Assembly (NCBI RefSeq): GCF_000013005.1
Contig: NC_007722.1
Location: forward strand, 1,431,501 to 1,495,500
Origin: Erythrobacter litoralis HTCC2594
Lineage (GTDB): Bacteria > Pseudomonadota > Alphaproteobacteria > Sphingomonadales > Sphingomonadaceae
Reading direction: 5' to 3'
Length of the DNA: 64,000 nt
Positions within the stretch are counted from its first letter, which is position 1, and every line of letters starts with the position of its first letter. The translations under genes and the position numbers were made by a program. Positions 2,820 through 54,523 of this stretch are shown here, one piece after another. Below the pieces are notes generated by a model. The model ran no database searches. It was not told the DNA's origin and saw only the letters and a list, made by a program, of their open reading frames with translations.

Positions 2820-2904
2820 CCCGTCACCCCAGCGAAGGCTGGGGTCTCATGCGGACATGTCCGACTTGGCGGACAGCGATCCCGGCTTTCGCTGGGATGA
2901 CGGG
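2820..2904. repeat. Palindromic REP-like doublet without cargo
   Basis: Two arms of about 27 bases face each other. The left arm starts cccgtcaccccagcgaagg; the reverse complement of the right arm starts cccgtcatcccagcgaaag. About 30 bases lie between them, including the palindrome ggacatgtcc. The doublet fills most of the gap between the amidohydrolase-like gene and ilvD. It belongs to the same broad family as the repeats at 18997-19078 and around the GIY-YIG gene at 53203-53577. It could also act as a hairpin in the mRNA. Confidence 0.8.
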
Positions 2905-4486: not shown

Positions 4487-4917
4487 CCTTCTTCCCCGAT
4501 CTGGGGAGGGGGACCATCCGCAGGATGGTGGAGGGGCGCGCGAGCTTTCCGCTTCAATTCCACTCGCCTGGCATCGCAAATCTCGACCAAGCGCGTCACA
4601 ACTGCCTCAATATCCTGCAGTATTAGTCGCGCCGGTATCCGGGTCATTGCTATCCCGCGGTCCCGAAGCCAAGCCGAGCGCCGCTTGTCTCGATCAACCA
4701 CGGCCTCACAATCATGGGCCTGCCCATCGACCTCGATGGCCAGCCGGGCTGCCGCGCAATAGAAGTCGAGCACAAATTGTCCCGCCGGATGCTGTCGCCG
4801 AAACTTGTATCCGCCGGGGCGCTTGCGCAGCTCTATCCACAACTTGCCCTCCGGCAGCGTCATCTCGCTACGCATCTTACGGGCGAGTTTCACAGAGTCG
4901 CGCGTGCCTGTGATCAT
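4483..4917 (-). CDS. DUF559 (Vsr-like endonuclease fold) protein inside an inverted-repeat unit
   Basis: A 144-residue protein of the DUF559 family, which is related to very-short-patch-repair endonucleases and has a PD-(D/E)xK-type fold. The candidate catalytic positions are visible: Asp51 in FVLDFYC, then Glu62 and Asp64 in IEVDGQAHD. The family hallmark FRRQHP lies just before them. The start is the ATG at 4917. The last residues, from about APLHHPADG on, are encoded by the left palindromic repeat, so the repeat supplies the C-terminus and the stop. The same repeat, inverted, lies directly upstream of the start. No partner methylase is present. Function in the cell is unknown; a self-mobilising or selfish role is inference. 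Confidence 0.85.
   Translation of the reverse strand: MITGTRDSVKLARKMRSEMTLPEGKLWIELRKRPGGYKFRRQHPAGQFVLDFYCAAARLAIEVDGQAHDCEAVVDRDKRRSAWLRDRGIAMTRIPARLILQDIEAVVTRLVEICDARRVELKRKARAPLHHPADGPPPQIGEEG
4489..4544. repeat. Left inverted copy of the repeat flanking the DUF559 gene
   Basis: Read on the minus strand, this copy carries the elements cgcccctccacca, tggtccccctcccc and cgggg in the same order as the copy at 4918-4970. The two differ only in the hairpin loops and a few bases. It contains two small palindromes. It codes for the tail of the DUF559 protein and ends next to the ispE start codon. Confidence 0.8.
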
Positions 4918-4970
4918 GGCTCGCCCCTCCACCACTTCGTGGTCCCCCTCCCCGTTTCGGGGAGGAAGAT
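4918..4970. repeat. Right inverted copy of the repeat flanking the DUF559 gene
   Basis: This copy fills the whole gap between the stop of the ETF:ubiquinone oxidoreductase gene and the DUF559 start codon. It has two hairpins, ccaccacttcgtggt and ccccgtttcgggg, which correspond to the palindromes in the copy at 4489-4544 in inverse orientation. Confidence 0.8.
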
Positions 4971-18996: not shown

Positions 18997-19078
18997 CGTC
19001 ACCCCCGCGCAGGCGGGGGTCCAGCTGACTTTTGCATTTGGCAATCAAAGCTGGATTCCCGCCTTCGTGGGAATCACG
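18997..19078. repeat. REP-like inverted doublet without cargo
   Basis: The left arm begins cgtcacccccgcgcaggc. The right arm, reverse complemented, begins cgtgattcccacgaaggc, and both continue into a ccagct tail. About 22 bases separate them. The left arm is nearly identical to the 32-bp repeats around the GIY-YIG gene at 53203-53577. It occupies the gap between the dnaE start and the following small membrane protein gene. Confidence 0.82.
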
Positions 19079-52453: not shown

Positions 52454-53179
52454 ATGTCCACCATCCTCCTCACCGGCTCCAGCCGCGGCATCGGTGCCGC
52501 CACCCGCGAAATGCTCGAAGCGCGCGGGGCCAGGGTGATCGGGCATTCGACGCAAGGCGACGGCGAAAGCGAACTCGCCGCCGATTTTACCGAGCCGACC
52601 GCGCCGCAGATGTTGTGGGAACATGCGCTGGAAATGGCCGGAGGGCGGATCGATGTGCTGATCAACAATGCCGGGTTGTTCCAGCAGAATCCGCTCAATG
52701 CCGCCGATATCCGCTGGCTCGATGCGTGGGAGGACACGCTGCGGATCAACCTGACGGCCGCCGCGCAGCTCAGCCGCTTCGCCGTCCAGCACTGGCTGGA
52801 GCGGGAGCGGGCCGATAGCGAGGAAGCGGGCCGCATCGTCCATATCGCCAGCCGGGCGGGACATCGCGGGGACAGCCCGGCGCACTGGCACTACGCCGCG
52901 GCGAAGGGCGGAATGCTGGCGATGCACAAGACCATCGCGCGCGCGTATGGGAACGACGGCATCTACAGCTATGCCGTTACGCCGGGCTTCACCGACACAT
53001 CGATGGCGGGCGACTATCTCGAAAGCCGCGGCGGACCGGGCCTGCTGGCCGACATCCCGCTCGGCCGCGTCGCTAAGCCCGAGGAAATCGCCAATGTCGC
53101 GACCTATCTCGCGCTCGATGCCCCACCCAGCCTGACCGGCGCGACGCTGGACGCAAACGGGGCGAGCTATGTCCGCTAG
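52454..53179 (+). CDS. Short-chain dehydrogenase/reductase
   Basis: A 241-residue SDR with TGSSRGIGAAT at the N-terminus, NNAGLFQQNP, and the catalytic serine and YxxxK region in HIASRAGHRGDSPAHWHYAA followed by AKGG. The C-terminus ATYLALDAPPSLTGATLDANG is typical of the FabG-like branch. Which ketone or alcohol it uses is unknown. The stop is 23 bases before the left inverted repeat of the GIY-YIG unit. Confidence 0.88.
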   Translation: MSTILLTGSSRGIGAATREMLEARGARVIGHSTQGDGESELAADFTEPTAPQMLWEHALEMAGGRIDVLINNAGLFQQNPLNAADIRWLDAWEDTLRINLTAAAQLSRFAVQHWLERERADSEEAGRIVHIASRAGHRGDSPAHWHYAAAKGGMLAMHKTIARAYGNDGIYSYAVTPGFTDTSMAGDYLESRGGPGLLADIPLGRVAKPEEIANVATYLALDAPPSLTGATLDANGASYVR

Positions 53180-53202: not shown

Positions 53203-53234
53203 CGTCATCCCCGCGCAGGCGGGGATCCAGCTTC
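53203..53234. repeat. Left 32-bp inverted repeat of the GIY-YIG unit
   Basis: Begins cgtcatccccgcgcaggc and ends ggatccagcttc. It is a perfect inverted copy of 53546-53577. The internal ccccgcgcaggcgggg forms a small hairpin. It ends 14 bases before the nuclease start codon. Confidence 0.95.
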
Positions 53235-53248
53235 TTTTTGGCGCACCT

Positions 53249-53545
53249 GTGAAGAAGGGAGGTCACGTCTATATCATGGCCAACCGCTATCGCGGGACTA
53301 TCTACATTGGCGTCACAAGCTCACTCCCACACCGGGTGCTACAACACCGCACAGGCGCGGGATCGGATTTCTGCGCACAATATGGATGCGACCAACTCGT
53401 GCTCGCGGAGAGGTTCAACTCGATCGACGAAGCCATCCAACGCGAGAAGCAACTTAAAAAGTGGAACCGCGACTGGAAGATCAGGCTTATCGAGGAGCAG
53501 AATCCAGACTGGGAGGACAGGTTTGCAGACCTGGTCATGTTGTAG
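53249..53545 (+). CDS. GIY-YIG nuclease domain protein bracketed by inverted repeats
   Basis: A 98-residue single-domain protein. The motif pair is present as HVYIM (GIY half) and TIYIGVTSSL (YIG half, residues 18-27). The catalytic arginine is in HRVLQHRTG. The metal-binding glutamate is in LVLAERFNSIDEAIQREKQL, and KKWNRDWKIRLIEEQNPDW is the usual end of this UPF0213/YhbQ-like type. The GTG start at 53249 is needed to include the first motif half; an ATG at 53276 would lose it. The stop codon directly touches the right repeat. DNA cleavage is expected from the family; the biological target is unknown. Confidence 0.93.
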   Translation: MKKGGHVYIMANRYRGTIYIGVTSSLPHRVLQHRTGAGSDFCAQYGCDQLVLAERFNSIDEAIQREKQLKKWNRDWKIRLIEEQNPDWEDRFADLVML

Positions 53546-53577
53546 GAAGCTGGATCCCCGCCTGCGCGGGGATGACG
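53546..53577. repeat. Right 32-bp inverted repeat of the GIY-YIG unit
   Basis: An exact reverse complement of 53203-53234 (32 of 32 positions), beginning gaagctggatccccgcctg. It abuts the stop codon of the GIY-YIG gene and may also serve as its transcription or mRNA end structure. Confidence 0.95.
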
Positions 53578-53602: not shown

Positions 53603-54523
53603 ATGACTGCGAGCTGGAAACTCACCGCCTTTGCGCCGAAGCCCGTGATACAGTCCGCGCTCCTCGCGCATGACGAGGCGTGGGACTGGGACGATGCGGT
53701 GGTCATCTCGGGACGCGAAGTGGCGGAAGACCGGCCCGAGGACTGGGTGCTCGAATGCTGGTACCCGCGCCGACCGACCAAGGCGGACAAGCAGGCGGCC
53801 GCCGCCCTGTTCGCGGGCGAGGCTCCGCCTTTCGAAGTCGAGAAACTCCCGGAAGAGGACTGGGTGACGCTCAGCCAGCAGGGCGTCGAGCCGATCCGGG
53901 CGGCGCGCTTCTACGTCCACACCCCCGACTTCCCGCCTGATGACACACCCGGCACGGTCAACTTCGCGATCCCCGCCAGCCAAGCCTTCGGTACCGGCCA
54001 GCACGAGACGACCGCCGGATGTCTCGCGATGCTGGACCTGATGAAGCGGCAGGGCGTTTCAGCGCGCAACATCGCCGATATCGGCACAGGCACTGGGCTG
54101 CTCGCGTTCGGCGCCTTGAGGCTGTGGCCACATGCTACGATGACCGCGACCGATATCGACGCGAATTGCGTGCCGGTCATCGAAGCCAATGCCGCCACCA
54201 ACGGCATCGCGCAGGGGAGCGGGCCGGGCGAAATGACGATGATCGTCGCTGCGGGCACCGACCATTCGCTGATCGCTGCGCGCGGCCCCTACGACTTGCT
54301 GATCGCCAATATCCTCGCCGGGCCGCTGGTCGATCTGGCCGGGGATTTCGCCGCGCATGTCGCTCCTGGCGGGCATCTGCTATTGGCAGGGCTGCTGGAA
54401 ACACAGGAAGCGCGGGTGCGCGCCGCTTACCGGCGTGCCGGATTTCGCCTCGCCAAGAGGCTCGTGAACGGAGACTGGTCGATCCTATGGATGCGAAAGC
54501 GTATCGGACGCAACGCGGGCTGA
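53603..54523 (+). CDS. prmA: Ribosomal protein L11 methyltransferase
   Basis: PrmA trimethylates lysines of ribosomal protein L11. The 306-residue protein has an N-terminal substrate-recognition domain (EDWVLECWYPRRPT), then the linker and methyltransferase domain: IPASQAFGTGQHETTAGCL, the SAM loop IADIGTGTGLLAFGALR, and LLIANILAGPLVDLA with the NILA motif of PrmA. Loss of PrmA is tolerated in many bacteria. The next gene starts 37 bases before this stop, in another frame. Confidence 0.93.
   Translation: MTASWKLTAFAPKPVIQSALLAHDEAWDWDDAVVISGREVAEDRPEDWVLECWYPRRPTKADKQAAAALFAGEAPPFEVEKLPEEDWVTLSQQGVEPIRAARFYVHTPDFPPDDTPGTVNFAIPASQAFGTGQHETTAGCLAMLDLMKRQGVSARNIADIGTGTGLLAFGALRLWPHATMTATDIDANCVPVIEANAATNGIAQGSGPGEMTMIVAAGTDHSLIAARGPYDLLIANILAGPLVDLAGDFAAHVAPGGHLLLAGLLETQEARVRAAYRRAGFRLAKRLVNGDWSILWMRKRIGRNAG

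Follow-up and report, generated by a model that had tools for sequence, protein, structure and literature searches.

A GIY-YIG nuclease gene between inverted CGTC-tagged REPs of Erythrobacter litoralis: a probable REPtron-like mobile unit

Introduction

Within the window analyzed here, a stretch of 64,000 nucleotides from Erythrobacter litoralis HTCC2594, a small gene encoding a GIY-YIG nuclease is enclosed by two copies of one repeat in opposite orientation, and the locus raises the question of whether enzyme and repeats together constitute a mobile unit. The original prediction held that they do, with a GIY-YIG enzyme in place of a RAYT mobilizing the repeats and with gene-less pairs of the same repeat as its non-autonomous relatives.

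According to a 2013 description, CGTC-tagged REPs form a superfamily apparently without a dedicated transposase, whose mobilizer was left to future work, and they are equated with dRS3 of Neisseria, which corresponds to the CGTC-1 repeats of that genus, as well as with RPE-4 and RPE-6 of Rickettsia (Di Nocera 2013, PMC3733652). Although the system was initially thought to have no established name, its repeats had thus already been given one; the link to a GIY-YIG nuclease, on the other hand, is absent from the literature found, as a full-text search of open-licence PubMed Central recovered no paper joining the two, and PMC3733652 reports no associated transposase gene and lacks the term GIY-YIG. 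The same paper indicates that REPs within hypothetical proteins of less than 120 aa were excluded from the list of intragenic elements; one might suspect, purely as conjecture, that distrust of short open reading frames is one reason why a 98-aa gene was overlooked.

Structure of the Unit

The predicted perfect 32-bp inverted repeat exactly framing a 98-codon gene was borne out, coordinates included (Table 1). The two arms are 32 nt each, 100% complementary, and separated by 311 nt, giving an inverted-repeat (bracket) score of 32, while the open reading frame begins 14 nt past the left arm and ends with its stop codon touching the right arm. The runner-up pair in the same search of the window, conducted for arms of at least 20 nt spaced within 1500 nt, reached 29 nt at 86%. 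The encoded protein matches the Pfam GIY-YIG family (PF01541, E=1.1e-12), which is its sole Pfam domain, and lacks any known transposase or recombinase domain. Residues R29 and E66, which we take to be the catalytic Arg/Glu pair of GIY-YIG enzymes, are invariant among 34 aligned members, and the only two solved structures matched by the sequence profile are those of the UPF0213 proteins BH0048 (1zg2) and EF2693 (1ywl).

Table 1. Positions of the unit, its host flanks, and the gene-less doublets in the window
Feature	Position	Strand	Description or basis
Left terminal inverted repeat	53203..53234	+	CGTC-1 type REP: tag CGTC, 8-bp stem ATCCCCGC/GCGGGGAT, loop GCAG, tail CCAGCTTC
GIY-YIG nuclease gene, single-domain, 98 aa, GTG start, TAG stop	53249..53545	+	Open reading frame and Pfam
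Right terminal inverted repeat	53546..53577	-	Exact reverse complement of left arm
Left host flank, SDR-family gene	52454..53179	+	Directly abuts prmA in six relatives
Right host flank, prmA-like methyltransferase gene	53603..54523	+	Pfam and prmA loci of relatives
Gene-less head-to-head doublet, repeat family of the unit	18997..19078		CCAGCT tail on both arms as in the unit; right tag mutated
Gene-less head-to-head doublet, CCCAGC-stem sister family	2820..2904		Tail TCTC on one arm, CGCT on the other

The window repeat is a typical CGTC-1 REP. In each arm, an unpaired 4-nt CGTC tag at one end (TGTC and CCTC being accepted variants) is followed by a stem of 8 bp whose first bases are AT, by a loop of 4 nt, and by a tail that starts with CCA, in agreement with the AT-opening stem of 8-9 bp, loop of 4-5 nt, CCA tail, and head-to-head dimers that PMC3733652 gives for CGTC-1. 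The E. litoralis genome holds 50 pattern matches of CGTC-1, and head-to-head dimers are present as opposite-strand matches some 50-60 bp apart. Whereas no transposase gene was found for the repeats in the earlier description, the repeats studied here form the ends of a nuclease unit. Gene-less inverted doublets of the same family had likewise been claimed for the window: both doublets are real, but only the one at 18997-19078 belongs to the family of the unit, the other having stems of the CCCAGC type found in two other units of this genome. Doublets and gene-bearing units have tag and stem type in common and, for the most part, the tail, with the CCCCGC family also sharing the CCAGCT tail, and the best reading of the doublets is that they are non-autonomous relatives of the GIY-YIG unit.

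Bracketing of GIY-YIG Genes Across Genomes

When the genome of E. litoralis and those of 39 relatives were searched with the 98-aa protein, a GIY-YIG match was present in 25 of the 40. The 76 matches correspond to 71 loci, five having been dropped (three fragments of genes already included and two that were short or weak), and 68 of these were scored; L131, L133, and L136 could not be located, while L063 and L135, wrongly placed by the query, are counted as misses. With bracketing defined as an inverted-repeat score of at least 14, 57 of the 68 loci were bracketed as compared with 0 of 131 displaced windows, the maximum of which was 12; L063 and L135 are among the 11 loci that fell below the threshold. 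The null rose when flanks were re-paired between loci (99th percentile, 27), a consequence of the repeat families that the loci have in common. Neither prmA genes (0/30) nor pseudo-genes tiled every 250 nt along the window (0/254), a tiling that does not happen to frame the unit itself, reached 14, and these controls rule out chance framing of the window gene. Rare bracketing of GIY-YIG genes in relatives, named beforehand as an outcome that would speak against the proposal, was thus not what was found, bracketing being far above controls, and the bracketed arrangement is general.

A second set of 93 loci was composed of 80 from named genome contigs (the best 80 of 562 confirmed relatives) and 13 from among 33 plasmid-collection records. 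Three lay too close to contig ends, and two of the named loci, L150 and L159, coincide with L050 and L051. Bracketing was observed in 52 of the 90 testable loci versus 4 of 338 displaced windows, leaving 38 below 14; these include L150, although L050, the same locus, scores 25, a miss probably due to an open reading frame that reads into the repeat. When motifs rather than complementarity were assessed, outward CGTC REPs were located on both sides of 71 of 157 loci (2 of 607 displaced windows) and on at least one side of 122 (34 of 607). Inward-facing motifs on both sides (20/157) were fewer than outward ones, yet not uncommon, which is what doublets located at unit ends would produce. Among 68 loci selected for a tag on both sides, 87 of the 136 ends start CGTCAT.

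The named set includes alpha-, beta-, gamma-, and deltaproteobacteria, and further cases scoring 14-24 come from Nitrospirae, Atribacteria, Flagellimonas, and one Halobacteria-labelled record, though taxon labels in this set may be wrong because many records are MAG bins. A record of Neisseria gonorrhoeae (L149) has a GIY-YIG match within inverted CGTC-type repeats, with a score of 21.

The single 3.05-Mb contig of the E. litoralis genome contains eight matches to the 98-aa protein, of which seven are strong; each of these seven lies between inverted palindromes (scores of 32, 26, 30, 24, 20, 19, and 20). Six kinds of repeat surround these seven paralogs: those with a CCCCGC stem, those with a CCCAGC stem (two units), and the GAGTCCC, GCTGAACTTGTTTCAGC, CATTGCGAG, and CCCCGGACTTGTTCCGGGG types. 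The eighth match, with a score of 9, is a member of a different GIY-YIG clade.

Covariation of Repeat and Protein

The covariation analysis was confined to the loci scoring 14 or more. Among the 57 bracketed units from E. litoralis and its relatives, the similarity of proteins was correlated with that of repeats over 1520 between-genome pairs (r=0.469), a value reached by 0 of 2000 permutations, and the correlation persisted (r=0.401, 0/2000) upon removal of pairs having homologous outer flanks, 44 in all. A similar value was obtained with all 109 bracketed units (r=0.429, 0/2000), while covariation was weaker in the 42 named units alone (r=0.325), where 4 of 2000 permutations reached it. At the level of whole genomes, a CGTC-2 repeat was carried by 9 of 10 genomes with the CGTC-2-type GIY-YIG clade, a clade assigned by eye, versus 3 of 30 without it (Fisher p=7e-6, phylogeny ignored). 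Likewise, the median copy number of CGTC-1 was 16 in genomes with clade-A GIY-YIG genes and 0 in those without (n=24 and 16, p=0.0013, phylogeny again ignored).

A Probable REPtron-Like Unit with a Nuclease as Partner

The reading that we favor, with a probability of roughly three in four, is that the window feature represents one copy of a widespread mobile unit of about 390 bp, REPtron-like in its organization, in which a GIY-YIG nuclease serves as the partner enzyme and inverted CGTC REPs form the ends. The predicted autonomous unit with a GIY-YIG enzyme instead of a RAYT is supported by the bracketing, the doublets, the empty sites described below, and the lack of a Y1 transposase match in this genome, while the mobilization of the repeats by the enzyme is a part of the proposal that we infer from sequence comparisons. 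The unit shares with RAYT-REP/REPIN systems an enzyme gene within inverted REPs, gene-less inverted doublets in the genome, and a link between repeat and enzyme subfamily. It differs from them in that its enzyme is a single-domain GIY-YIG protein whereas RAYTs are HUH tyrosine transposases (Y1_Tnp), and in that its tag is CGTC where RAYT-linked REPs carry GTAG. The data suggest that a large class of dispersed DNA repeats, the origin of which has been unexplained, finds its missing partners in such nucleases.

Mechanistically, the nuclease would recognize its cognate repeats by tag, hairpin, and tail, in extruded or single-stranded form, and would cut or nick the DNA close to the recognized hairpin, after which host repair or replication may copy the stretch between, with or without the gene, into new places. 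Such a mechanism predicts covariation of repeat and protein, a conserved tag, and homology that ends at the repeats, and the observations made here fit these predictions. GIY-YIG enzymes hydrolyze DNA without a covalent intermediate, which makes a homing-like, repair-dependent route more likely than classical transposition. Free-standing GIY-YIG homing endonucleases are likewise small enzymes with a plausible cut-and-repair mode of spread; the unit differs in that no intron was seen here and in that its bounds are members of a dispersed palindromic repeat family.

If this reading is right, CGTC REPs gain a concrete and testable candidate for their mobilizer, acting in matched repeat-enzyme pairs of which several reside in one genome. 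A unit of about 390 bp with an enzyme of about 95-100 aa would also rank among the smallest autonomous mobile elements, and hairpin-ended repeats would be able to spread without a transposase.

Empty Sites and Two-Tagged Hairpins

At the 29 prmA loci of relatives that were read, the SDR-family gene directly abuts prmA in six (G001, G004, G006, G007, G012, and G022), lies farther off with other sequence between in ten, and was not found in the stretch in thirteen; no GIY-YIG match stands beside prmA in any other of the 40 genomes. Given the six empty sites and the lack of any other match beside prmA, the window unit is an addition at this junction in the present lineage. A second example is provided by Azospirillum lipoferum 4B (L140), where a unit flanked at both ends by a REP doublet lies between sufB and sufC of the iron-sulphur operon, while three relatives of approximately 96% identity have 87-129 bp between the two genes and no unit. 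A fixed vertical gene, which in the form of a locus held at one place without empty sites had been stated at the outset as an outcome that would overturn the proposal, is ruled out by these two junctions; the picture of a mobile unit is tempered by the finding that some units are inherited in place between genera. Around the units of Rhizobium CIAT894 and N. aromaticivorans no usable empty sites were obtained, nor was one found around that of R. tumorigenes, for which all eight full-length matches also carry the gene.

At other sites, relatives carry a trace of the repeat. In Sphingobium, a unit is situated between fnrL and a response-regulator gene in seven records (three read, four judged by full coverage), two other records have a single hairpin that bears a tag at each side, and the repeat is missing from TYG72, TYG65, and S. 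herbicidovorans. Similarly, at the gltA-lpxB site Sinorhizobium K101 has a two-tagged hairpin where an S. meliloti record has a unit plus a remnant. Such hairpins consist of the outer half of one REP joined to the other REP, as expected from deletion between stem arms, and occupy 52 places in 11 of the 40 genomes, none of them in E. litoralis. They are suggestive of deletion or excision scars but may instead be targets. Two-tagged hairpins, among which are L234, L235, and L233, sometimes have two different arms.

These sites bear upon a variant of the favored reading in which the unit would spread only by converting existing REP sites, through gene conversion following a cut at an empty REP or doublet, and never into naive DNA. 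The solo hairpins at the Sphingobium fnrL site and at gltA-lpxB of Sinorhizobium K101 speak for such homing, in which the enzyme would cleave an empty allele and the unit would be copied into it, but as signs of it they are only suggestive, since a two-tagged hairpin is also the expected product of a stem-arm deletion and either direction is possible. Moreover, some gains seem to have reached naive DNA, because SDR and prmA abut in relatives and because a REP between sufB and sufC is absent from three of the four Azospirillum relatives read, the remaining one, B510, having a palindrome of another kind. We regard exclusive conversion of existing sites as unlikely, though it is the alternative that deserves the most serious attention.

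Edges of Homology, Selection, and Distribution

The mobile-unit reading is further consistent with the discreteness of the units, the outer-to-outer length of which has a median of 392 bp and quartiles of 373 and 425.5 (111 units). In 61 pairs the alignment runs the length of the unit and ends near the outer limits of the repeats (median overshoot, 0; 5-95%, -3 to 9); other gene pairs alignable as DNA share genomic context (15) or align partially (266). Under a more stringent check, nine of the 61 proved to have homologous flanks and 52 to have none, or 48 once three near-identical Sphingobium loci are merged, with 46 units involved in the latter group. These nine, the 15 pairs in shared context, and the 44 with homologous outer flanks show that the distribution is in part vertical. 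L045 and L065 occupy two sites in a single 430-contig assembly and show 89.8% identity over 420 bp, with divergence setting in about ten bases beyond the tags. The units of S. meliloti and Shinella match over about 385 bp while their neighboring genes differ. At L030/L114 and at L125/L127, the same site in two genomes carries the unit in opposite orientation relative to flanking genes, as if it had inverted between its own inverted repeats.

Classical insertion sequences, too, consist of a gene enclosed by terminal inverted repeats. The GIY-YIG unit differs from these in having no known transposase or recombinase domain and no target-site duplication: in the 68 loci tagged on both sides, direct matches of 1-7 nt at the ends are about as many as in re-paired flanks. 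A classical insertion sequence with target duplication is ruled out on this basis, yet the lack of duplication remains a weak argument against insertion sequences as such, because some of them also lack duplications. In the same 68 loci, a pyrimidine immediately precedes the tag, on its outer side, at 59 left and 56 right ends, figures that may reflect the generally C-rich flanks.

In most pairs measured dN/dS was low, at 0.09-0.13 in 10 of 14 hand-picked pairs, several of them with saturated dS, and ranged from 0.02 to 0.45 overall, the two highest values occurring at very low divergence; several copies contain internal stops or a frameshift. The gene was matched in 33 of 72,556 records of the plasmid collection, several of which are chromosome-sized, and in none of 50,697 phage records (98-aa protein as single query, E 1e-6), the latter result ruling out phage cargo at that threshold. 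RAYTs are low-copy, chromosomal genes with many small dependants, and the distribution of the GIY-YIG gene, by analogy, resembles theirs.

Low dN/dS, scarcity in plasmid and phage records, and the inheritance of part of the units in place are also compatible with a host-domesticated nuclease that trims cruciforms at REPs and moves nothing, the REPs simply accumulating beside its gene. This explanation we consider improbable, as it does not account for two copies at different sites of one genome (L045 and L065), for the 52 pairs whose homology ends at the repeats and does not extend into the flanks, or for near relatives with empty sites; together with the copies bearing internal stops, the overall pattern is that of a mobile lineage as opposed to a fixed host gene.

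Were the REPs instead moved by a RAYT or another transposase, the GIY-YIG gene might be a passenger, that is, cargo caught between two REPs. In keeping with this, any DNA can be flanked by two REPs, the comparison made here covering GIY-YIG, DUF559, prmA, and tiled controls, and some genomes have CGTC-1 repeats with no GIY-YIG match to the one query protein (G032, 48 copies; G021, 33 copies in an 85% complete genome; G018, 10 copies). The E. litoralis genome, however, has no Y1 transposase match (RAYT; Y1_Tnp, PF01797), which led us to reject mobilization by a RAYT there, and only 9 of the 40 genomes searched have one. As the GIY-YIG subclade also tracks repeat type and the prmA and tiled controls were never bracketed, a passenger role appears improbable. 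Finally, the notion that an ordinary gene merely lies between hairpins that are terminators or random palindromes, which draws on the commonness of hairpins next to genes, deserves almost no credence, being already contradicted by controls at or near zero, by the 32-nt perfect inverted identity, and by the conservation of tag and tail outside the stem.

Parallel Nuclease-Repeat Pairs

Beyond the unit with CGTC REPs, two further pairings of a small nuclease with palindromic repeats were encountered. Firstly, nine of 14 weak GIY-YIG matches (L125-L130 and L132-L134, from eight genomes) form a second clade that is bracketed by CCGTTCG-type (CCGTTCGnnCTGAGCnTGTCGAAGnnC) repeats or variants thereof. 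The E. litoralis genome contains 58 pattern matches of this repeat, while the clade member that it encodes (L031) lacks such bracketing. Secondly, a DUF559 gene is enclosed by an imperfect inverted repeat at window positions 4488-4968, made up of CTTCxTCCCC...GGGGAGGGGGACCA and a further hairpin. Among 30 DUF559 loci of the own and related genomes, six were too close to contig ends, and 18 of the 24 testable loci were bracketed versus 0 of 96 displaced windows, with the reservation that some loci share context and that L251 and L252 are near-identical stretches in two genomes.

It is conceivable, at slightly less than even odds, that a guild of minimal mobile units, each composed of one small nuclease between two hairpins and no transposase, has several of the abundant orphan palindromic repeats of Proteobacteria as its non-autonomous offspring. 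Its members would be the GIY-YIG nucleases of clade A with CGTC REPs, those of clade B with repeats of the CCGTTCG...GTCGAAGG type, and DUF559 with repeats of the CTCCCC...GGGGAGG type. If so, a nuclease acting with host repair would constitute a further general way of moving DNA, and one invented more than once. In a Sphingomonas record, a DUF559 gene is annotated between sufB and sufC, the very junction that holds the GIY-YIG unit in A. lipoferum.
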